Positions 3,915 to 49,580 of a DNA stretch of 64,000 bases are shown piece by piece. Positions within the stretch are counted from its first letter, which is position 1, and each line of letters starts with the position of its first letter. Source of the stretch: Pedobacter glucosidilyticus DSM 23534. Its GTDB lineage: Bacteria; Bacteroidota; Bacteroidia; Sphingobacteriales; Sphingobacteriaceae. The DNA lies in contig NZ_AULF01000024.1 of assembly GCF_000425145.1 (NCBI RefSeq), positions 1 to 64,000 on the forward strand. The letters are read 5' to 3'. Under the pieces are notes generated by a model. The model was given only the letters and a program-made list of their open reading frames with translations. It had not been told where the DNA came from and did no database searches. A program made the position numbers and the translations under genes.

Positions 3915-4690
3915 TAACCCCCCCCTTCGACTCCACTCAGGGTGAGAATCCTCTCTATTCTCTACATAACCGGACAGGCAGGCACTCGTGGTTTTTTTCA
4001 CTGCGAAGCATGAAGCAGTCTTTTATGTCCTTCATATAGAGATAGTTCACTGCGTTCATGATAACAAAATGACGCATTAAACAACATCCAGCTAGGAAAT
4101 AAAACCAGAAAAATCTCTGTGCACACTGCGCCCTCTGCGGTTAAAAAACTGCTTTTAATAATCAAGGCGATACCATCGCCACCCCAAAGTAAGAACTCGT
4201 TACAAACGAGCTCAAGAAGAACTCTGCTCAGGTTTTTGTCACTGCGAAGCATGAAGCAGTCTTTTACAACCTTCATATAGAGATAAATCACTGCGTTCAT
4301 GATAACAAAATCATGCATTAAACAACATCCAGCTAGGTAACAAAACTAGAAAGACCTCTGTGCACACTGCGCCCTCTGCGGTTAAAAAAAATCTGCTTTT
4401 AATAAACAGAGCGATACAATCGCTACCCCATAGTAAGAACTCGTTTGCAAACGAGCTCAAGAAGAACTCTGCTCAGGTTTTTGTCACTGCGAAGCATGAA
4501 GCAGTCTTTTATAACCTTCATATAAAGATAAATCACTGCGTTCATGATAACAAAATGACGCATTAAACAACATCCAGCTAGGAAATAAAACCAGGAAAAT
4601 CTCTGTGTACACTGCGACCTCTGCAGTTAAAAAAATCTGCACTTAATCAAAAAGCGATACGATTACCAGTGTTAAGTACTCGTTATAAAC
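3915..4690 (+). repeat. AGTCGAAG-type remnant and ~243-bp repeat, block 3 (three units)
   Basis: The gene-free stretch 3790-4722 starts with a single arm of the CTTCGACTCCACTCAGGGTGA repeat (about 3926-3946). From 3990 it holds three direct units of the ~243-bp repeat. The GAAGCATGAAGCAG module starts near 3998, 4239 and 4484, and the CTCTGCGG module near 4124, 4365 and 4610. The last copy is degenerate. The block ends 30 bases from the 3' end of the Cry-DASH gene. Confidence 0.8.
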
Positions 4691-4722: not shown

Positions 4723-6066
4723 TTAAATATAATTTTCATGTACAGTTTCTACACTACGGTCAGAAAGTTCTGGTAGCCATAGTTTTACATATTCACCTTT
4801 AGGGTCATACTCTTTAGCTTGTTTTGGGATGTTAAAATACCTGTCTTCTCGAGGGTCATTACCTACACCAGCAACATAAGCCCAATTCCCCCAATTGCTA
4901 GAGGGGGCGTAATCAATAAGCTTTTCTTCAAAATAAGCTGCTCCTAAAGTCCAGTTTACTTTTAAATCTTTCACTAAATAAGAAGCCACATTTTGTCTGC
5001 CACGATTGCTCATAAAACCTGTTAGATTAAGCTCTCTCATATTGGCATCTACAAAAGGTACTCCCGTTTTGCCAGCTTTCCATTTCTCAAAAAGCTCTTC
5101 TTGGTTAGGTGCTAAATCCTGAGCTTTCCCTTTTACCCCCTCTTGTATAAAGTATTGTGTGCCATATTTTTTAAACATGAAACGGAAATAATCTCTCCAA
5201 ATCAATTCAAAAATCAGCCAATAAGTAGAGTCGTTTGCACCACGCTCTTTCTCATATTTTTTAACTTCCCAATAAACTTCTCTTGGCGAAACGCATCCGG
5301 CAGATAGCCAAGGCGAGAGTTTAGAACTATAATCAGCACCTATTAAACCATTTCTGGTGATTTTATACTGCTTTAGAAAATCTGTCTCCCACAAATAATA
5401 ATTTAACCTTTTTAAGCCCTCTGTTTCGCCGCCTATAAAATTTATAGCCCTACGTTGGTCGGGCTGAAATGCTTCAAAACCTAAATCTTGAAGTGTTGGA
5501 ATTTCTGTTTGTTCTAAGTTATTAGGAACTACAATTTTTTCTGGCGTGGTAAATACCGAGCGTATTTGACCCTCTTTTTCTGCTTTTTTCCTGAATTTTG
5601 TAAATACATCGGGAATGTCTTTTATAGGGAAAGGCAAATCTTCCTTATGATATAAAGTATGACCTATAAAATGCTTTAAGTTGATTTGACTTTTCCAGAG
5701 GGCATCCTCTACCAGAGAAGAAATTTTAGTTTCCTCAGAAGCTACCTCTCTATGGTGATAAACCTCATCAACCTGATATTTTTTAACTATTTCGGGAAGT
5801 ATTTCTTCTGGAATACCGGTATATACCAATAAATCTCCACCTAGTTTTTGTAATGAAAGTCTTAGATCAGTAACACTTTCTATAGTAAACTGCGCCCTAA
5901 AAACGCCTGTTTTTTGAGTTTGATAAACAGACTGTGTGTAATAACGAGTATCAAAAATATAGACTGGAACAATTTTAGCACCTTTTAAAGTAGCTTCAAG
6001 CAATATTTCATTGTCATGAATACGTAAATCATTCCTGAACCATACTAATATCGTTTTACTACTCAT
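4723..6066 (-). CDS. Cryptochrome DASH
   Basis: A 447-aa member of the photolyase/cryptochrome superfamily. The N-terminal photolyase alpha/beta domain starts ILVWFRNDLRIHDNE. The FAD-binding domain contains WRDYFRFMFKKYG, GFMSNRGRQNVASYLVKDL and SNWGNWAYVAGVGNDPRED. The last segment and the FNIPKQAKEYDP stretch are diagnostic of the DASH subclass. These proteins bind FAD and usually methenyl-tetrahydrofolate and repair CPDs in single-stranded DNA; a signalling role has also been proposed. The DUF2256 gene lies 37 bases upstream on the same strand and is probably co-transcribed. A pterin operon lies divergently beyond it. Confidence 0.93.
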   Translation of the reverse strand: MSSKTILVWFRNDLRIHDNEILLEATLKGAKIVPVYIFDTRYYTQSVYQTQKTGVFRAQFTIESVTDLRLSLQKLGGDLLVYTGIPEEILPEIVKKYQVDEVYHHREVASEETKISSLVEDALWKSQINLKHFIGHTLYHKEDLPFPIKDIPDVFTKFRKKAEKEGQIRSVFTTPEKIVVPNNLEQTEIPTLQDLGFEAFQPDQRRAINFIGGETEGLKRLNYYLWETDFLKQYKITRNGLIGADYSSKLSPWLSAGCVSPREVYWEVKKYEKERGANDSTYWLIFELIWRDYFRFMFKKYGTQYFIQEGVKGKAQDLAPNQEELFEKWKAGKTGVPFVDANMRELNLTGFMSNRGRQNVASYLVKDLKVNWTLGAAYFEEKLIDYAPSSNWGNWAYVAGVGNDPREDRYFNIPKQAKEYDPKGEYVKLWLPELSDRSVETVHENYI

Positions 6067-6103
6067 ACCAAGGTTTATAATTAAAATGCCTGCAATTTGG
6101 TTA

Positions 6104-6256
6104 TTATTTCATATTTCGACAACGTTCTGAGCAATATTTTACTTCCTCCCAACATTTTTCCCACTTTTTACGCCAAGAAAAAGGCCGATGACATGATGCA
6201 CAAAGTTTTGAGGGTAAATAAGCTTTGCTAACAACCTTACCGCTTTTGTTCTTCAT
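6104..6256 (-). CDS. DUF2256 zinc-ribbon-like small protein
   Basis: A short gene of 50 codons that a length filter would miss. The product has [19 protein letters not shown] and then YCSERCR. It carries Cys at 19, 22, 35, 42 and 46, with CxxC and CxxxC pairs expected to bind a metal. This is the DUF2256 signature (CPxCxRPFxWRKKWxxxWxxVxYCSxRCR). The family is uncharacterised but often sits beside photolyase or cryptochrome genes and TIGR03643 genes, as here. It reads towards Cry-DASH with 37 bases between them. Its ATG lies 40 bases from the divergent TIGR03643 start, so both promoters share a very small region. Confidence 0.88.
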
Positions 6257-6261
6257 GTTAC

Positions 6262-6290
6262 TTAAACAATAAAATACTTCGGATGTTTAA
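6262..6290. promoter_or_regulatory. Inverted TTAAACA / TGTTTAA boxes in a divergent promoter
   Basis: TTAAACA (6262-6268) and TGTTTAA (6284-6290) are inverted and 15 bases apart. They fill most of the 40-base gap between the divergent DUF2256 and TIGR03643 starts. Similar boxes occur before the pterin operon (6596-6629) and before the CarH-like gene (29059-29074). A shared regulator is inferred. The motif is AT-rich, so chance occurrence is possible. Confidence 0.4.
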
Positions 6291-6296
6291 AGAGGA

Positions 6297-6584
6297 ATGA
6301 AACAAGATTTTAAACACTTAAGCCCGGCTGAAATTGATAGGATTATAGAGATGGCTTGGGAAGACCGTACGCCATTTGAGGCTATAGCTTATCAATTTAA
6401 ATTATCAGAACAAGAGGTGATTAGGCTGATGAGAAGAGAGCTTAAACCATCAAGTTGGAGGCTATGGAGAGAGCGGGCTCACCAAGTTTCTATCAAACAT
6501 CAAAAGAAAAGAGCCCAAGATGTAAACCGCTTTAAATGTTCATTACAACGTCAAATTACATTAAACAAAATCTCTAAACGATAA
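6297..6584 (+). CDS. TIGR03643 family protein
   Basis: A 95-aa very basic protein. The first half (LSPAEIDRIIEMAWEDRTPF...AIAYQFKLSEQEVIRLMRRE) reads as a helix-turn-helix fold. The second half (LKPSSWRLWRERAHQVSIKH) is the TIGR03643 signature. The family has no established function. It repeatedly neighbours DUF2256, photolyase and FolE-type genes, and this is what is seen here. The HTH-like half suggests nucleic-acid binding. An AGAGG sequence immediately precedes the ATG. The 3' end contains a TTAAACAAAA box at 6561-6570. Confidence 0.82.
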   Translation: MKQDFKHLSPAEIDRIIEMAWEDRTPFEAIAYQFKLSEQEVIRLMRRELKPSSWRLWRERAHQVSIKHQKKRAQDVNRFKCSLQRQITLNKISKR

Positions 6585-6591
6585 TCCATCG

Positions 6592-6629
6592 TACATTTGT
6601 TTAAGAATTATCTATAAAAGTTAAACAAA
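6592..6629 (+). promoter_or_regulatory. Promoter with -7 box and inverted TTTGTTTAA boxes
   Basis: TACATTTG (6592-6599) fits the Bacteroidetes -7 consensus TAnnTTTG exactly. It overlaps TTTGTTTAA (6596-6604), which is inverted with respect to TTAAACAAA (6621-6629) 16 bases further on. No TTG is visible at the -33 distance, which is usual for promoters that need an activator or antirepression. It would drive the pterin operon that starts at 6656. Confidence 0.5.
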
Positions 6630-6655
6630 ACTATATCCTTGATGTTACACTTACA

Positions 6656-7069
6656 ATGAAACAGAAAATAGCCGTTTACAGAAAAGAACATTTTAATGCC
6701 GCTCATAGGCTTCATAACCCCTTATGGAGTGATGAAGAAAATAAGAAAGTTTTTGGTAAGTGTAATAACCCTAGCTTCCATGGACATAATTATGAACTTG
6801 TTGTAAAAGTTGTTGGCTACACCGATGAGCAAACAGGTTACCTGGTAGATATGAAAATTTTATCTGATATCATCCAAGAGCATGTTGTAGAAAAATTTGA
6901 CCATAAGAACCTTAATTTGGATGTGGCAGAGTTTAAAGACTTAAACCCTACTGCAGAAAACATTGCTATGGTAATTTGGAATATACTAAGAGCGCATTTA
7001 GATCATGCGCTAGATCTTTATGTTACACTTTTTGAAACTGAAAGAAACTATGTTGAGTACCCAGCTTAA
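6656..7069 (+). CDS. 6-pyruvoyl-tetrahydropterin synthase family (PTPS/QueD)
   Basis: A 137-aa zinc enzyme that acts on 7,8-dihydroneopterin triphosphate. Zinc ligands are H17 (AAHRL) and H42/H44 (HGHNY). The active-site Cys is C36 in GKCNNPSFHGHNY, the Asp-His pair is D82-H83 in FDHKNLNLDV, and the substrate-binding Glu is in LFETERN. The GKCNN...HGHNY and DHKNL stretches look more like animal-type PTPS than the short bacterial QueD pattern. The 3' end overlaps folE, and an SDR follows, so a biopterin-like product is more attractive than queuosine here. QueD activity is still possible and would need a test. First gene of the operon 6656-9782. Confidence 0.9.
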   Translation: MKQKIAVYRKEHFNAAHRLHNPLWSDEENKKVFGKCNNPSFHGHNYELVVKVVGYTDEQTGYLVDMKILSDIIQEHVVEKFDHKNLNLDVAEFKDLNPTAENIAMVIWNILRAHLDHALDLYVTLFETERNYVEYPA

Positions 7070-7733
7070 ACCACTAAAAAAAGACTTATTAACTCATTTT
7101 GATGAGTTAGGCGACGAACATATTGGCACATCTTACGATACACCTTTAAGACCAGACGCATTCGATTTAGAAGACGATGTTAAAATAGACCAAATTGCTC
7201 ATCATTTTAAGCATATCATGGATATTTTAGGGCTTGATCTTACTGACGATAGCCTAAGAGGTACTCCGCAAAGAGTAGCTAAAATGTATGTAAAAGAAAT
7301 TTTCAAAGGGTTAAATCCGGCAAATAAGCCAGATATGAAGCTTTTTGACAACAAGTACCAGTACAATCAAATGCTGGTAGAAAAAAATATTACTTTGTAT
7401 AGCAACTGCGAGCATCATTTTGTTCCTATTATCGGAAAAGCACATGTAGCTTATATCAGCAATGGTAAAGTAATTGGTTTATCAAAATTAAACCGTATAG
7501 TACAATACTTTGCACAAAGGCCGCAAGTGCAAGAGCGCTTAACCATGCAAATTGCTAACGAATTAAAGCAAGCCTTAGATACAGAAGATGTTGCTGTTGT
7601 CATTGATGCTACGCACTTATGTGTATCATCAAGAGGAATCAAAGATGTGCAAAGCTCTACAGTAACGGCAGAATATGGTGGCAAATTCTTAGATATTGAT
7701 ACCCGTAACGAATTTTTAAAACATATAGGATAA
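7050..7733 (+). CDS. folE: GTP cyclohydrolase I
   Basis: FolE converts GTP to 7,8-dihydroneopterin triphosphate, the substrate of the preceding enzyme. The zinc ligands are C120 and H123 in SNCEHHFVP and C191 in HLCVSSRG. The core motifs GLSKLNRIVQYFAQRPQVQE and the SSRGIKD loop are complete. I choose ATG 7050 (227 aa) because the frame from 7020 would lie deeper in the PTPS gene. With this start the overlap is 20 bases, still indicating coupling. The N-terminal ~45 residues (DELGDEHIGTSYDTPLR) are a family extension of unknown role. Confidence 0.95.
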   Translation: MLSTQLKPLKKDLLTHFDELGDEHIGTSYDTPLRPDAFDLEDDVKIDQIAHHFKHIMDILGLDLTDDSLRGTPQRVAKMYVKEIFKGLNPANKPDMKLFDNKYQYNQMLVEKNITLYSNCEHHFVPIIGKAHVAYISNGKVIGLSKLNRIVQYFAQRPQVQERLTMQIANELKQALDTEDVAVVIDATHLCVSSRGIKDVQSSTVTAEYGGKFLDIDTRNEFLKHIG

Positions 7734-7734
7734 C

Positions 7735-8433
7735 ATGAATTATTTGGTAATTGGTGGTAGTACAGGTATAGGTTTGGCATTAGTTAAAAAGCTGCTTGCT
7801 GATGGGCATGAGGTCATTGCTGTTTCTAGGCATAAAGGAGAATTACCTCTGGAAGCAAAATTTGTAGCCTTGGATATTTTGGAAGATATTTCTGTCTTAA
7901 AGGATCATTTACCAGAAAATTTACATGGTCTAGCTTATTGTCCAGGTACTATCAATTTGAAACCTTTCCCCCGTTTAACGGCAGACGATTTTAGAAAAGA
8001 TTATGAAGTAAATGTTATTGGTGCGGTTAAAGTTATTCAGCAAGTTTTACCACAATTAAAAGCAGCTAAACAAGCTAGTATTTTGTTGTTTAGCACTGTA
8101 GCTGCAAAAGCAGGTATGGGTTTTCATGCTTCTATATCGGCAGCAAAAAGTGCTATAGAAGGTTTAACAGTTTCTCTGGCAGCAGAATTTGCAGCATCAA
8201 AAATAAGAGTAAATGCACTAGCACCTTCTTTAACAGATACGCCTTTGGCAGCTAGCTTATTAGCTACACCAGAAAGAAGAGAAGCCTCAGAAAAAAGACA
8301 CCCACTGGGTAGGGTGGGTACCGCAAAAGAACTTGCAGAAGCAGCCTATTTTCTTTTATCTGATAAAAGTTCTTGGGTAACCGGACAAGTTATAGGTATA
8401 GATGGTGGAATGTCTACATTAAAATCATTTTAA
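7735..8433 (+). CDS. Short-chain dehydrogenase/reductase lacking the catalytic Tyr
   Basis: A 232-aa classical SDR. The NAD(P)-binding GGSTGIG is at residues 7-13, a probable NADP-type SRH follows the second strand, and the end GQVIGIDGGMSTL is complete. Catalytic Ser is S120 and Lys is K138. The residue four before the Lys is I134 (HASISAAK), where the classical YxxxK motif has Tyr. I recall related cluster-linked SDRs with the same HASxxAAK pattern, so this may be a family property rather than damage. It starts one base after the folE stop. Position suggests a reductase step on a pterin (sepiapterin reductases are SDRs), but without the Tyr the chemistry is uncertain. Confidence 0.88.
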   Translation: MNYLVIGGSTGIGLALVKKLLADGHEVIAVSRHKGELPLEAKFVALDILEDISVLKDHLPENLHGLAYCPGTINLKPFPRLTADDFRKDYEVNVIGAVKVIQQVLPQLKAAKQASILLFSTVAAKAGMGFHASISAAKSAIEGLTVSLAAEFAASKIRVNALAPSLTDTPLAASLLATPERREASEKRHPLGRVGTAKELAEAAYFLLSDKSSWVTGQVIGIDGGMSTLKSF

Positions 8434-8434
8434 G

Positions 8435-9076
8435 ATGAAGCATCTTACACTAGCGCAAATTACTGAGCTGCCATCCAGGTACCGTACCACTTTTATGAAC
8501 AGTATATCAGGCTTTAAAAGCCTACAGATGGTGGCTACAAAAAGTAATAATACCGGAGTAACCAATATTGCATTATTTAACTCCATTTTTCATATTGGGG
8601 CAAATCCGCCTTATATCGGCATGGTGCTAAGGCCAGACGGACCAGAGCATGAAACCCTAAAAAATATCAGCGAAAGCGGGTTTTATACACTTAATAACGT
8701 TAAAGAAGAATTTTACAAAGCGGCACATCAAACCAGTGCTAGGTATAAAGCCGGTGAATCTGAGTTTGCTGCATGTGGTTTTCAGGAGGAATATTTAGAA
8801 GGCTTTGATGCTCCTTTTGTGAAAGAATCATCAGTTAAACTGGGCTTAAAATTAAAAGAAATCATACCGGTTGCGTTAAATGGTACTCGCATAGTTATTG
8901 GCGAAGTGCAACATGTTTTGGTTGATGAGAATTTAATTTTAGCAGATGGTTACGTAAATCTTGCTGCAACAAATACGGTAACTGTGGCTGGTTTAGATGC
9001 TTACCATAGCACCCAATTGCTAGCCAGATTAAGCTATGCACAACCAGAAAAACATCCGGAAGAAATAAACGTTTAA
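8435..9076 (+). CDS. Flavin reductase-like (FMN-binding split barrel) protein
   Basis: A 213-aa protein of the flavin reductase-like / DIM6-NTAB fold. The pattern ALFNSIFHIGANPPYIGMVL followed by HETLKNISESGFYTLNNV is the typical FMN-binding core. Such proteins bind FMN and reduce flavin or a substrate with NAD(P)H; substrate cannot be told from sequence. It starts one base after the SDR stop, so it is firmly within the pterin operon. A role in supplying reduced flavin to cryptochrome or in pterin redox chemistry is only an inference. Confidence 0.85.
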   Translation: MKHLTLAQITELPSRYRTTFMNSISGFKSLQMVATKSNNTGVTNIALFNSIFHIGANPPYIGMVLRPDGPEHETLKNISESGFYTLNNVKEEFYKAAHQTSARYKAGESEFAACGFQEEYLEGFDAPFVKESSVKLGLKLKEIIPVALNGTRIVIGEVQHVLVDENLILADGYVNLAATNTVTVAGLDAYHSTQLLARLSYAQPEKHPEEINV

Positions 9077-9095
9077 GAAGTAATTAATCTTGAAG

Positions 9096-9782
9096 ATGAT
9101 GGAAAATAAAGTCTCAGAAAAAAAGCCAAAAGCAATGGGTACTAAAGAAAAAATTCAGAACGCTTATATAGAACATCTATTAACGGAGGGCAAACAGCCT
9201 GCATCGGTTTTTATTTTTGCTAAAAAGAATAAAATGGCAGAAGAAGAATTTTATAAGTTTTATGCCTCTTTTAGCGCTATAGAAGCTGATATCTGGAATG
9301 ATTTATTTTCTAAAACCATCGCCGAGATTAAAAGTCAGGAAGTTTGGGAACAATATTCGGCAAGAGAAAAAGCCCTTTCTTTCTTCTACAGTTTTTTTGA
9401 GCTCTTAAAAAGCAAAAGAAGTTATGCCTTACACAGCGTAAGAAGTTTTAAGAAAGGACTTAAAACTCCAACGGCATTAAGTTCAGCGAAAGAAACTTTT
9501 ACAGAGTTTAGCACCCAAATAATACAAGATGGTTTAGAAAGCGGCGAGCTTTCAGAAAGAAAGTTTATTAGCGATAAATATGTGGATGCACTTTGGTTAC
9601 AAGTAGCCTTCTTACTAAACTTCTGGGTCAAAGATCAATCCGCAGGTTTTGAAAAAACCGATGAAGCCATAGAAAAAGGTATCAACGTAACTTTTGATTT
9701 ATTCCAGCGCTCTCCTATCGATAATTTATTTGAATATGGAAAGTTTTTAGCACAGCATGCAGGTATAAAAATGGCTTTTTAA
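9096..9782 (+). CDS. TetR-like regulator (COQ9/TetR C-terminal type)
   Basis: A 228-aa all-helical protein. The N-terminus (TKEKIQNAYIEHLLTEGKQP...FAKKNKMAEEEFYKFYASF) follows the TetR HTH pattern with weak conservation. The C-terminal part (FFYSFFELLKSKRSYA ... VDALWLQVAFLLNFWVKDQS) resembles the ligand domain shared by TetR and COQ9. I use ATG 9096 rather than the TTG at 9090. It lies 19 bases after the flavin-reductase gene and precedes a UbiB-type kinase; COQ9-like and UbiB-like proteins also cooperate in quinone synthesis. Whether it binds DNA or lipid is unclear. Confidence 0.72.
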   Translation: MMENKVSEKKPKAMGTKEKIQNAYIEHLLTEGKQPASVFIFAKKNKMAEEEFYKFYASFSAIEADIWNDLFSKTIAEIKSQEVWEQYSAREKALSFFYSFFELLKSKRSYALHSVRSFKKGLKTPTALSSAKETFTEFSTQIIQDGLESGELSERKFISDKYVDALWLQVAFLLNFWVKDQSAGFEKTDEAIEKGINVTFDLFQRSPIDNLFEYGKFLAQHAGIKMAF

Positions 9783-9959: not shown

Positions 9960-11270
9960 ATGAAAGAGCAAAACAGTATTCCATCTAGTAAAGTAGCTCG
10001 TTCTGCAAAATTTGTAGGCACAGGTATAAAAATAGGCGGTAATTATATCAAGCATTACTCTAAAAAACTTTTCAATCCAGATTTAAGTAGAGATGAACTG
10101 AATGAAGATAATGCCAGCGACATTTATAACTCTTTAAGCCAACTTAAGGGCAGTGCTTTAAAAGTAGCACAAATGCTTAGTATGGATAAAAATATCCTGC
10201 CAAAGGCTTATGTAGATAAGTTTTCTTTATCACAATACAATGCGCCACCTTTAAGCGGACCATTGATTGTGCAATCTTTTAAAAAGCATTTTGGTAAGTC
10301 TCCTGATAAGATTTACGATACTTTCAACTTAAAATCAACCAATGCAGCATCAATTGGACAGGTCCATCAAGCTACTTTAAAGGGGAAAAAATTAGCAGTA
10401 AAAATCCAATATCCAGGTGTTGGCAGTTCTATTTCATCAGATCTTAAATTGGTAAAACCCTTTGCTTTTAGATTGCTAGGTATGAGCGAAAAAGAGCTGG
10501 ATATTTACATGAAAGAAGTTGAAGAGCGCTTGATAGAAGAAACAGATTATGAATTAGAAGTAAAGCGCTCTCTAGAATTTTCTAAAGCTTGCGCTAATAT
10601 TCCCAATCTAGTTTTTCCGGCGTATTATCCAGAATTGTCTGGTCCACGAATAATTACGATGGATTGGATTGAAGGTCTGCATCTGAAAGAGTTTTTACAA
10701 ACCAACCCTAGTCAGGAATTAAGAAATCAAATTGGCCAGGCACTTTGGGATTTTTATAATTTTCAACAGCATGAATTAAGAGCAGTACATGCTGATCCGC
10801 ACCCGGGTAATTTCTTAATTACTCCTGAAGGCAAGCTAGGTATTATAGATTTTGGATGTATCAAAGAAATCCCAGATGATTTCTATTATCCTTTTTTCTC
10901 TACTACATCAACAGAATTATTGAACAATAAAGAAGAAACCATCAAAGCTTTTAGGCTTTTAGAGATGATTTTGCCAAAAGATAATGCTCAACAAATAGAG
11001 TTCTATTACCAAACCTATAAAGAAATGATTACCCTCTTTGCAGAACCTTATATGACAGGTGAATTTGATTTCGGGCAAACCCATTTCTTTGATGAATTAT
11101 ACACCTTTGGCGAGAAAATAGCTAAAATGCCCGAATTTAAACAGGCTCGTGGTGTGAAGCATTTTATTTATGTAAATCGTACCAACTTTGGTTTATACAA
11201 TATTTTGCATGAGCTAAAAGCAAATATCAGAACAGATACCTATAAGCCACACGTACAATTGGCTTATTAA
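9960..11270 (+). CDS. AarF/UbiB (ABC1) family atypical kinase
   Basis: A 436-aa protein of the ABC1/UbiB family, which supports isoprenoid lipid metabolism. The segment SIGQVHQATLKGKKLAVKIQ holds the ATP-binding Lys. The catalytic loop is HADPHPGNF and the metal-binding motif is IIDFG. The family N-terminal KxGQ motif reads LKVAQMLSMD here, with Ala in place of Gly. There is no C-terminal membrane helix as in UbiB of proteobacteria. The preceding TetR/COQ9-like gene and the pterin genes suggest a shared transcript, though a 177-base purine-rich gap intervenes. Confidence 0.88.
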   Translation: MKEQNSIPSSKVARSAKFVGTGIKIGGNYIKHYSKKLFNPDLSRDELNEDNASDIYNSLSQLKGSALKVAQMLSMDKNILPKAYVDKFSLSQYNAPPLSGPLIVQSFKKHFGKSPDKIYDTFNLKSTNAASIGQVHQATLKGKKLAVKIQYPGVGSSISSDLKLVKPFAFRLLGMSEKELDIYMKEVEERLIEETDYELEVKRSLEFSKACANIPNLVFPAYYPELSGPRIITMDWIEGLHLKEFLQTNPSQELRNQIGQALWDFYNFQQHELRAVHADPHPGNFLITPEGKLGIIDFGCIKEIPDDFYYPFFSTTSTELLNNKEETIKAFRLLEMILPKDNAQQIEFYYQTYKEMITLFAEPYMTGEFDFGQTHFFDELYTFGEKIAKMPEFKQARGVKHFIYVNRTNFGLYNILHELKANIRTDTYKPHVQLAY

Positions 11271-48266: not shown

Positions 48267-49580
48267 CTAACGCTTAGCTAATCCTTCCTGATAAACCTTC
48301 AAGCATCTTTCTCTGGCAAATTTATGGTCAACAATAGCTTTAGGATATTTAAACGGATCTGAAAATTCAGGAACCCATTTTTTTACGTAAGCTAGTTCTT
48401 TATCAAACTTCTTTTGTTGCTCATAAGGGTTAAAAATTCTAAAATAAGGTGCTGCATCAACACCAGAACCTGCCGCCCATTGCCAACCTCCTACATTACT
48501 AGAAAGTTCAAAATCAAGAAGTTTTCTGGCAAAATAACGCTCTCCCAAGCGCCAGTCTAACAGTAAATGCTTGGTTAAAAAGCTAGCCACAACCATCCTG
48601 ATACGATTGTGCATAAAACCAGTCTCGTTAAGTTCTCGCATACCAGCATCTACAATGGGGTAACCTGTTTTTCCTTCGCACCATGCTTTAAAAGCTTCTT
48701 CATCTTTACGCCATGCTATTTGGTCATACTCAGGCCTAAAAGCTTGTGTTGCAGAATGTGGGAAATGCCATATAATAGCAAAATAAAAATCCCTCCAAAT
48801 CAATTCATTTAACCAAGCTTCACTTTTATAATCCAAAGCATTTTTTACCAATTCGCGTATACTGATAGTCCCGAATCTAAGATGTAAACTGATACGAGAA
48901 GTAGCATTTTTAGCAGGGTAGTCCCTATTTTCTCCATATCCTTTTAAAATACCTAAATAAGATATTTCAGAAAATTTTAATTTACTAGGTTCAAAACCCA
49001 TATCAGCCAAATCTACAGCCGCAAATGGTTTAGTTTGGTAGAAATGCTGGAAATATTTTTCTGTTGGATAAGGTTTGAAGTGATAGGGATTTAACTGAGC
49101 TAACCATTTCCTTTTGTAAGGCGTAAAAACTACATAAGGAGAGCCATCATCTTTAACAACTTCATCTTTTTCAAAGATAGCTTGGTCTTTAAAAGTTTTA
49201 AATACGACCTGCTTTTCTTGAAATAACTGATTTAAACTTTTATCCCTTTCTTTAGCATAAGGCTCATAATCATGATTGGTATATACCTCAGCAATATCAT
49301 ATTCCTTTAATAGGGATGACCAAATAGCTAAAGGTTTACCGTATTTAATGATGATTGAACTGCCTAAACCATGAAGTAGTTCACTTATTTTCATGATTTC
49401 CTGATGGATAAAAGTTACCCTGCCATCATCTTTATCTTCGAGTTTTGACAGTATCTCTTCATCAAAAATAAATAAGGGCAATACCGGATAATTACTTTTT
49501 AAAGCATGATACAAGGCAGCGTTATCATTTAGCCTAAGATCTCTTCTAAACCAAAAGATACTGATTTTAGAGTTACTCAT
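48267..49580 (-). CDS. phrB: Deoxyribodipyrimidine photolyase, class I type
   Basis: A 437-aa CPD photolyase. The N-terminal domain starts SIFWFRRDLRLNDNAAL. The FAD-binding domain contains LNELIWRDFYFAIIWHFP, GYPIVDAGMRELNETGFMHN and the WQWAAGSGVDAAPYFRIFNP segment that defines the class I/animal-like group. It should split cyclobutane pyrimidine dimers with blue light. Its start overlaps the TIGR01777 gene by 8 bases, so the two are translationally coupled. It is the third photolyase-superfamily gene in this window and belongs to a different subfamily from the other two. Confidence 0.95.
   Translation of the reverse strand: MSNSKISIFWFRRDLRLNDNAALYHALKSNYPVLPLFIFDEEILSKLEDKDDGRVTFIHQEIMKISELLHGLGSSIIIKYGKPLAIWSSLLKEYDIAEVYTNHDYEPYAKERDKSLNQLFQEKQVVFKTFKDQAIFEKDEVVKDDGSPYVVFTPYKRKWLAQLNPYHFKPYPTEKYFQHFYQTKPFAAVDLADMGFEPSKLKFSEISYLGILKGYGENRDYPAKNATSRISLHLRFGTISIRELVKNALDYKSEAWLNELIWRDFYFAIIWHFPHSATQAFRPEYDQIAWRKDEEAFKAWCEGKTGYPIVDAGMRELNETGFMHNRIRMVVASFLTKHLLLDWRLGERYFARKLLDFELSSNVGGWQWAAGSGVDAAPYFRIFNPYEQQKKFDKELAYVKKWVPEFSDPFKYPKAIVDHKFARERCLKVYQEGLAKR

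Follow-up and report, generated by a model that had tools for sequence, protein, structure and literature searches.

A second FolE beside an animal-type PTPS in a candidate light-response gene cluster of Pedobacter

Pterin genes have been connected with light-responsive proteins in several bacteria, and we compare these systems with a gene cluster of Pedobacter glucosidilyticus DSM 23534 in which genes for a GTP cyclohydrolase I (FolE) and a 6-pyruvoyl-tetrahydropterin synthase (PTPS) lie beside genes for a DASH cryptochrome (Cry-DASH) and a short-chain dehydrogenase/reductase (SDR). The cluster lies in a window of 64,000 nucleotides (contig NZ_AULF01000024.1, positions 1 to 64,000), which is the whole stretch of DNA that was analysed. 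In Pseudomonas mendocina, folM-folE-folX is located in a LitR/LOV region and is light-responsive (2.4-2.5 for folM and 1.6-3.3 for folE), as are, in the same study, the photolyase gene phrB, the cryptochrome-like gene cryB, an SDR and ufaM (PMC9758184). That regulon resembles the Pedobacter cluster in the kinds of genes that it unites, but, in the available parts of the source, it uses a FolX/FolM branch without PTPS, carries its pterin genes at another locus than phrB and does not belong to Bacteroidota. The RpoE-ChrR singlet-oxygen regulon of Rhodobacter sphaeroides likewise brings together a photolyase (phrA), an SDR (RSP_1087) and a GTP cyclohydrolase (folE2, RSP_1852), along with cfaS, and folE2 was raised in both Rhodobacter species; no PTPS is named in the accessible text (PMC7074977). 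For cyanobacteria such as Synechocystis, a pterin has been proposed as the chromophore of a light receptor or cryptochrome, with Cry-DASH (PMC3546692), and in Arthrospira gamma rays raised folE1, a PTPS gene and cry-DASH together, which the authors linked to pterin chromophores (PMC4398503). As far as the available passages go, the cyanobacterial proposal differs from the Pedobacter case in its glycosylated pterins, its link to phototaxis, its phylum and the lack of a joint operon with a photolyase. The animal and cyanobacterial pathway to tetrahydrobiopterin (BH4), which runs through FolE/GCH1, PTPS-II and sepiapterin reductase, is matched by the adjacent FolE and PTPS-II of the window but not by its SDR, which lacks the catalytic tyrosine.

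A light-linked pterin operon is therefore not wholly new: on the accessible portions of the papers, P. mendocina has folM-folE-folX, and the RpoE regulon of Rhodobacter combines folE2, phrA and an SDR. The first-pass annotation of the window had known of no cofactor pathway of this kind assigned to the cluster. This stood for Bacteroidota, in which no PTPS-photolyase link was found in the open-access literature (titles, abstract openings and passages), but not for light-linked pterin operons at large. A photolyase cofactor pathway through FolE and PTPS-II was likewise not found in those open-access texts, and the available passages deal with light-induced carotenoids in Chryseobacterium, with no mention of pterins, and with another light-operon enzyme (PMC7064467, PMC11417400). 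The new element is PTPS-II beside a photolyase; the enzyme families are ordinary, and the kind of light-response cluster is partly known.

Association of the PTPS-FolE pair with photolyase genes

The genes for FolE, PTPS and the SDR were found adjacent or overlapping in the window, beside those for Cry-DASH, a DUF2256 protein, a TIGR03643 protein and a flavin-reductase-like protein, and coordinates and family matches agreed with the first-pass annotation (Table 1); all cluster genes named there were present with open frames. The reading frame of FolE opens within PTPS, at 7020, and its probable start is near 7050; PTPS ends at 7069. The gaps between FolE and the SDR, and between the SDR and the flavin-reductase-like gene, are each 1 base. 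Because these genes overlap or sit one base apart, the run from PTPS through the flavin-reductase-like gene very likely forms a single transcript. Cry-DASH and DUF2256 are divergent from this operon (minus versus plus strand), and the class I photolyase of the window is 41 kb distant from PTPS.

Co-location was assessed in 198 genomes of the class Bacteroidia with profiles for the SDR (A1), PTPS (A2), class I photolyase (A3) and FolE (A4), and for the DUF2805 family, by counting neighbours within 6 kb; some fetched contigs were shorter than this on one or both sides. Window-type PTPS was taken as matches of about 200 bits or more, plus one of 165.9 bits (G144, with stops; the motif in L225 fits). 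PTPS and FolE were neighbours in 55 of 82 cases. A class I photolyase lay near the window-type PTPS in 15 of 82 (expected 0.25; 7 families) and near the matching FolE in 17 of 109 (expected 0.32; 8 families), and the SDR lay near PTPS in 14 of 82 (expected 0.19), near FolE in 21 of 109 (expected 0.25; 11 families) and near a class I photolyase in 19 of 123 (expected 0.26); the expected counts rest on a single genome size of 3.4 Mb, treat the rows, which are related, as independent and take no account of contig ends. The excess was more than fiftyfold, with profiles that partly derive from linked loci and may favour linked members, and the grouping is not a product of chance. The photolyase partner in this class-wide count is the class I photolyase; Cry-DASH stands outside it. 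Among the rows listed for the other PTPS type (a set of at least 68, with matches above about 164 bits), 1 of 68 was near a class I photolyase. DUF2805 lay near the SDR in 15 of 81 cases and near a class I photolyase in just 1 of 123, two half-length DUF2805 matches in G240 being excluded.

Individual loci displayed several arrangements. PTPS, FolE, SDR, flavin-reductase-like gene, photolyase, DUF2256 and Cry-DASH share a single strand in L193, L200 and L181, and the order PTPS-FolE-photolyase was found in L255, L256 and L257, and in L258 with a broken photolyase. PTPS adjoins a photolyase without FolE in L253 and L254, and FolE adjoins one in L269. In a quick tree of 39 photolyases the linked state was scattered, with at least 10 changes; many forks are open, and gain and loss are indistinguishable. 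In one draft genome, a photolyase beside PTPS-FolE (G240:C132:73535-74794) has many stops and may be an assembly error.

Within the genus, the window-type PTPS was present at one locus in each of 17 genus mates; PTPS-FolE-SDR was contiguous in 15 of these, and Cry-DASH lay within the fetched stretch in 12. An iron-sulphur-type (DPRP-type) photolyase lay beside Cry-DASH in five genus mates (G007, G008, G012, G013, G014), all of which have PTPS nearby. Counts from the SDR loci (PTPS in 10 of the 19 that have a class I photolyase and in 0 of the 13 that have a DPRP-type one) would fit a tie of PTPS to class I photolyases only; this was ruled out because the DPRP-type photolyase occurs in those five of 17 genus mates, each with PTPS nearby. 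The corresponding loci of these genus mates are L093, L094, L098, L099 and L100, and L004 shows the arrangement as well; no DPRP-type photolyase was found in the open reading frame list of the window's own stretch.

Some relatives place the same genes among regulators and carotenoid genes. In L046 (Owenweeksia), a single strand carries a MerR regulator, an extracytoplasmic function (ECF) sigma factor, an amine-oxidase family gene that is probably CrtI, a phytoene-synthase family gene (SQS_PSY), a NUDIX gene, PTPS, FolE, SDR, the flavin-reductase-like gene and a photolyase. In L255, an ECF sigma factor, the two carotenoid-type genes seen in L046 and NUDIX precede PTPS-FolE-photolyase; L256 and L253 have an ECF sigma factor and NUDIX before PTPS and photolyase; and in L269 a MerR regulator with a B12-binding domain is followed by an ECF sigma factor, FolE and photolyase. 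The NUDIX cluster, which we take to be probably isopentenyl-diphosphate isomerase, directly precedes PTPS in all 14 loci that possess it. In L257, no sigma factor, regulator or carotenoid gene was present among the three neighbours scanned (DnaJ, an exonuclease and one without a match). The arrays of L046, L269 and L255 resemble known CarH/LitR and ECF light responses. Since MerR, ECF sigma and carotenoid genes join the cluster in some relatives, we read it as a putative light-response module.

Several observations weigh against this reading. For 67 of the 82 window-type PTPS genes, the 6 kb on either side held no class I photolyase. In 78 loci from close relatives (chiefly Cytophagales and other Bacteroidetes; 36 reach 20 kb or longer), the window-type FolE was present in 47, and a photolyase-type gene of any queried kind lay within 6 kb of PTPS in only four (L003, L004, L009, L046). 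Cry-DASH was missing from the stretch in five of the 17 genus mates: G009, G011 and G017 retain the genes from PTPS to ABC1 but neither Cry-DASH nor the DUF genes (the G009 contig stops about 2 kb past PTPS on the Cry-DASH side), in G003 a flavin-reductase-like match is missing along with Cry-DASH and DUF2256, and the fifth is G001. Both G001 and G002 lack FolE and the SDR at the PTPS stretch. Finally, the regulator scanned in the window is of the TetR_C_23 type. In the co-occurrence search proposed in the first-pass annotation, as carried out for Bacteroidia, FolE and PTPS stand with a class I photolyase far above expectation, but most pairs of this type have no photolyase within 6 kb.

The PTPS type and the SDR subfamily

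In the accessible passages on COG0720, the motifs are given as CxxxHGH for PTPS-I/QueD, CxxxxxHGH for PTPS-II and ExxHGH for PTPS-III (PMC5041015). The window PTPS carries GKCNNPSFHGHNY, a CX5HGH motif that matches PTPS-II, and the animal-type motif named in the first-pass annotation was confirmed. Compared with solved structures, it was closest to rat 1b66 (E 8.2e-33) and human 3i2b (3.4e-32), versus 7e-7 to 7e-5 for QueD-type entries. The presumed catalytic residues Cys36, His17/42/44, Asp82, His83 and Glu127 were identical in all 16 aligned rows. The PTPS of isolate UBA7667 is 99% identical to that of the window. Motif and similarity place the window PTPS with the BH4 (PTPS-II) type and not with QueD.

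A queuosine role and a folate bypass were both considered for this PTPS. QueC, whose presence elsewhere in the genome would, according to the first-pass annotation, have spoken against its cofactor hypothesis, gave a best match of 21 bits over 60 positions in the own genome, under the cut-off, and we judge that this genome lacks QueC. Across 100 genomes, of which 97 have PTPS, the QueC profile gave some match in 91 and one above the curated cut-off in 64; nearly all matches listed were short stretches of 21-36 bits within longer frames, and among those listed were a full strong match in one genome (G092, E 1.6e-81) and a split match in G023. FolB was present in 58 of 60 genomes searched, the own genome included. 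Because QueC is below the cut-off and FolB is present, neither queuosine synthesis nor folate bypass appears to be the natural role of the PTPS; as a PTPS-III bypass of FolB, it would also carry the wrong motif (CX5HGH).

The genome has another PTPS-FolE pair (C17), with a different PTPS motif, GRCANANWHGHNY; the proteins of this second pair matched those of the window with 124 and 137 bits. The window-type PTPS was found in one of 20 loci (L110) from other genera of the family. Because a second pair lies elsewhere and the window type is in 1 of 20 other-genus loci, the window PTPS-FolE is, as judged from sequence, an extra, diverged set in Pedobacter. A third, QueD-like PTPS type (CX3HGH) was observed in Pedobacter and other Sphingobacteriaceae (L085, L088, L106, L107, L111-L115, L117); nearly all genomes with this type have no full QueC match, and G023 has its split match. 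Tandem PTPS genes, one per type, adjoin FolE at L009:3797-4964 and G139:C3:63055-64341, one of them in a Ferruginibacter. A plasmid search for PTPS relatives gave weak QueD-like matches only.

Matches to the SDR at E 1e-50 or better were found in 81 of the 198 class genomes, one in each. In 103 rows (matches over 170 bits, some loci counted more than once), the position of the catalytic tyrosine is occupied by Ile (63), Val (39) or Thr (1), and His131 and Lys138 are invariant in all 103; the nearest solved SDR has Tyr at this position. Of the Tyr-Lys pair of sepiapterin reductase, the 103 rows of this SDR family, to which the comparison was confined, have the Lys throughout and the Tyr nowhere. 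Because the catalytic Tyr is replaced in every row, the window SDR is, on its aligned residues, not an ordinary sepiapterin reductase. The complete tetrahydrobiopterin set claimed in the first-pass annotation therefore holds for FolE and PTPS-II and goes too far for the SDR.

The surroundings of the SDR were examined in the window and 73 other loci, from 81 matches. Within 6 kb, the 73 loci held a photolyase in 38, a flavin-reductase-like gene in 33, FolE in 19 and PTPS in 13, and 17 had no light or pterin neighbour at all. In many loci the SDR lies beside photolyases without PTPS or FolE, which also speaks against an ordinary sepiapterin reductase. FolE without a photolyase occurs in five SDR loci (L202, L205, L206, L243, L245), and for this reason the SDR is tied to both pterin genes and photolyases; it could act in light stress, or be a pterin reductase whose active site is unusual. 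A Mesorhizobium plasmid relative (L186:7989-8711; 43.5%) is also Tyr-less; it lies in an rpoE-chrR stretch together with MsrPQ, fasciclin and two photolyases, one of the DPRP type and the other annotated as class I. In the stretch around the closest plasmid SDR, that of Spirosoma H1, neither a photolyase nor a pterin gene is annotated.

Proposed role and alternative explanations

On balance, we lean towards the cluster being a light or photo-oxidative-stress module with a FolE-PTPS-II branch that would make a reduced unconjugated pterin. From their family membership, the dedicated second FolE would convert GTP to dihydroneopterin triphosphate, and the adjacent PTPS-II would convert this to 6-pyruvoyl-tetrahydropterin, which itself or as a reduction product would be the reduced unconjugated pterin. 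Its production would go along with that of DNA photolyases and cryptochromes, accompanied in some relatives by carotenoid genes, under light control that is presumed for Pedobacter. Its most likely use would be as a photolyase or cryptochrome pterin, directly or through a precursor pool shared with folate, and/or in the quenching of photo-oxidants. The recurrence of similar groupings in related bacteria suggests that a reduced pterin helps these cells cope with light. The core idea of the first-pass annotation, a pterin tied to light-responsive proteins, was strengthened by the recurrent photolyase link and by the cyanobacterial co-induction, while its complete-BH4 and cryptochrome-antenna forms are hypothetical.

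The photolyase antenna bears on this use. A class I photolyase was present in 121 of the 198 class genomes, and CofH, for synthesis of 8-hydroxy-5-deazaflavin (8-HDF), exceeded its cut-off in 0 of 198; weaker matches in 146 of 198 are presumably relatives from the menaquinone pathway. With CofH over the cut-off in none of these genomes, the class I photolyase probably does not have 8-HDF from the cell's own synthesis as its antenna, and methenyltetrahydrofolate (MTHF), a flavin or another pterin remain as candidates. To our knowledge, the antenna of many bacterial class I photolyases has yet to be identified. A tentative and rather unlikely proposition is that a dedicated FolE-PTPS-II operon supplies the class I photolyases of Bacteroidia, and perhaps Cry-DASH too, with a reduced unconjugated pterin that serves them as antenna or redox cofactor, the Tyr-less SDR being the unusual reductase of this pathway. 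Because CofH exceeds its cut-off in 0 of 198 genomes, yet a photolyase is present in 121, with PTPS-II and FolE beside some, a pterin cofactor or photoprotectant is a testable prediction. Read as a light module, the cluster further suggests what PTPS copies may do in genomes that lack a clear queuosine pathway, and the analysis marks a widespread SDR subfamily that lacks the catalytic tyrosine.

The leading alternative is that the extra FolE feeds tetrahydrofolate, loads Cry-DASH and photolyase with MTHF and replaces light-damaged folate, PTPS being a side branch. The folate route is open, with FolB in nearly all genomes searched; FolE stands next to the SDR or a photolyase, with no PTPS there, in L140, L180, L206, L243, L245, L251 and L269; and the MTHF site of Cry-DASH is described as highly conserved in the accessible part of the source (PMC3546692). 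PTPS, however, competes with FolB for substrate and yet overlaps FolE in the window, and it stands beside a photolyase without FolE in L253 and L254, so that we regard folate supply as possible but fairly unlikely. The original form of the proposal, in which PTPS, FolE and the SDR make tetrahydrobiopterin for Cry-DASH as an antenna or signalling cofactor, draws on the presence of Cry-DASH in the same stretch in most genus mates, on PTPS accompanying three and FolE five of the 9 strong Cry-DASH matches in SDR loci, and on the cyanobacterial chromophore proposal and Arthrospira co-rise, as far as those sources are accessible (PMC3546692, PMC4398503). It is opposed by the missing tyrosine, by the divergent transcription of Cry-DASH, by the folate antenna known in Cry-DASH proteins according to the available passages (PMC3546692) and by a class-wide count in which the partner was the class I photolyase; we consider it improbable.

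A role as cofactor for a pterin-dependent hydroxylase, as in animals, with the light genes nearby by chance or through shared regulation, would suit the PTPS-II type, and the own genome has one FA_hydroxylase match (41.6 bits, cut-off 31). It has no Biopterin_H match, which 32 of 100 genomes searched do have, making BH4 for an aromatic amino-acid hydroxylase unlikely in this genome, and the photolyase association is far above chance; a hydroxylase cofactor is thus very unlikely. That the PTPS is a queuosine (QueD) enzyme is scarcely credible: the family does include QueD, the window PTPS matches TIGR03367 with 68.8 bits and QueC exceeds its curated cut-off in a majority of genomes, but that TIGR03367 match is below the cut-off of 89.25, the QueC matches as listed are mostly the short stretches described above, with the own best under the cut-off, and the PTPS has the CX5HGH motif and is far nearer to animal PTPS.

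Other features of the window

The cluster extends beyond 9782, with a TetR_C_23 gene that starts at 9090 and an ABC1 kinase gene downstream, both retained in most genus mates. In other families, a TetR_C_23 regulator and an ABC1 kinase are likewise found at loci with a photolyase, DUF2805 or the SDR (L140, L142, L175, L219, L222). The nearest solved structures to the window Cry-DASH were 6kii, 1np7 and 2j4d.

Table 1 Features of the Pedobacter cluster and the distant class I photolyase in the window.
Feature	Position	Strand	Match
Cry-DASH (DASH cryptochrome)	4723..6066	-	TIGR02765 579.5 bits, cut-off 317
DUF2256 small protein, 50 aa	6104..6256	-	PF10013 76.7 bits
TIGR03643/DUF2805 protein	6297..6584	+	PF10985 114.8 bits; TIGR03643 112.7 bits, cut-off 66.55
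PTPS, PTPS-II (animal BH4) type, CX5HGH	6656..7069	+	PF01242
FolE, GTP cyclohydrolase I, second copy in genome	7020..7733	+	TIGR00063 233 bits, cut-off 181.6
SDR, subfamily without catalytic tyrosine	7735..8433	+	PF13561
Flavin-reductase-like split-barrel protein	8435..9076	+	Flavin_Reduct PF01613 56.9 bits; solved relative 3fge E 1e-57
Regulator with TetR_C_23 domain	9090..9782	+	PF17931 149.9 bits
ABC1/UbiB-type kinase	9960..11270	+	PF03109 171 bits
Class I photolyase, family neighbouring PTPS/FolE in some other Bacteroidia	48267..49580	-	photolyase alignment A3, E 3.3e-215

DUF2805 was considered as the anchor of the pterin association and found weak, since only 3 of 60 DUF2805 loci have FolE and 3 have PTPS. 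In marine metagenomes, DUF2805 groups with translation domains, which in the accessible text gives no support for a light role (PMC3597751). Plasmid DUF2805 genes in Vibrio and Pseudoalteromonas had no annotated pterin genes in the two stretches (L187, L188).

Small open reading frames at 1539-1823, 2691-2924 and 3998-4318 (minus) and at 4360-4566 (plus) share near-identical peptides and are probably spurious; on the minus strand the shared peptide includes LLELVCNEFLLWGG. Their similarity points to a repeated intergenic DNA element, present in several copies upstream of Cry-DASH.

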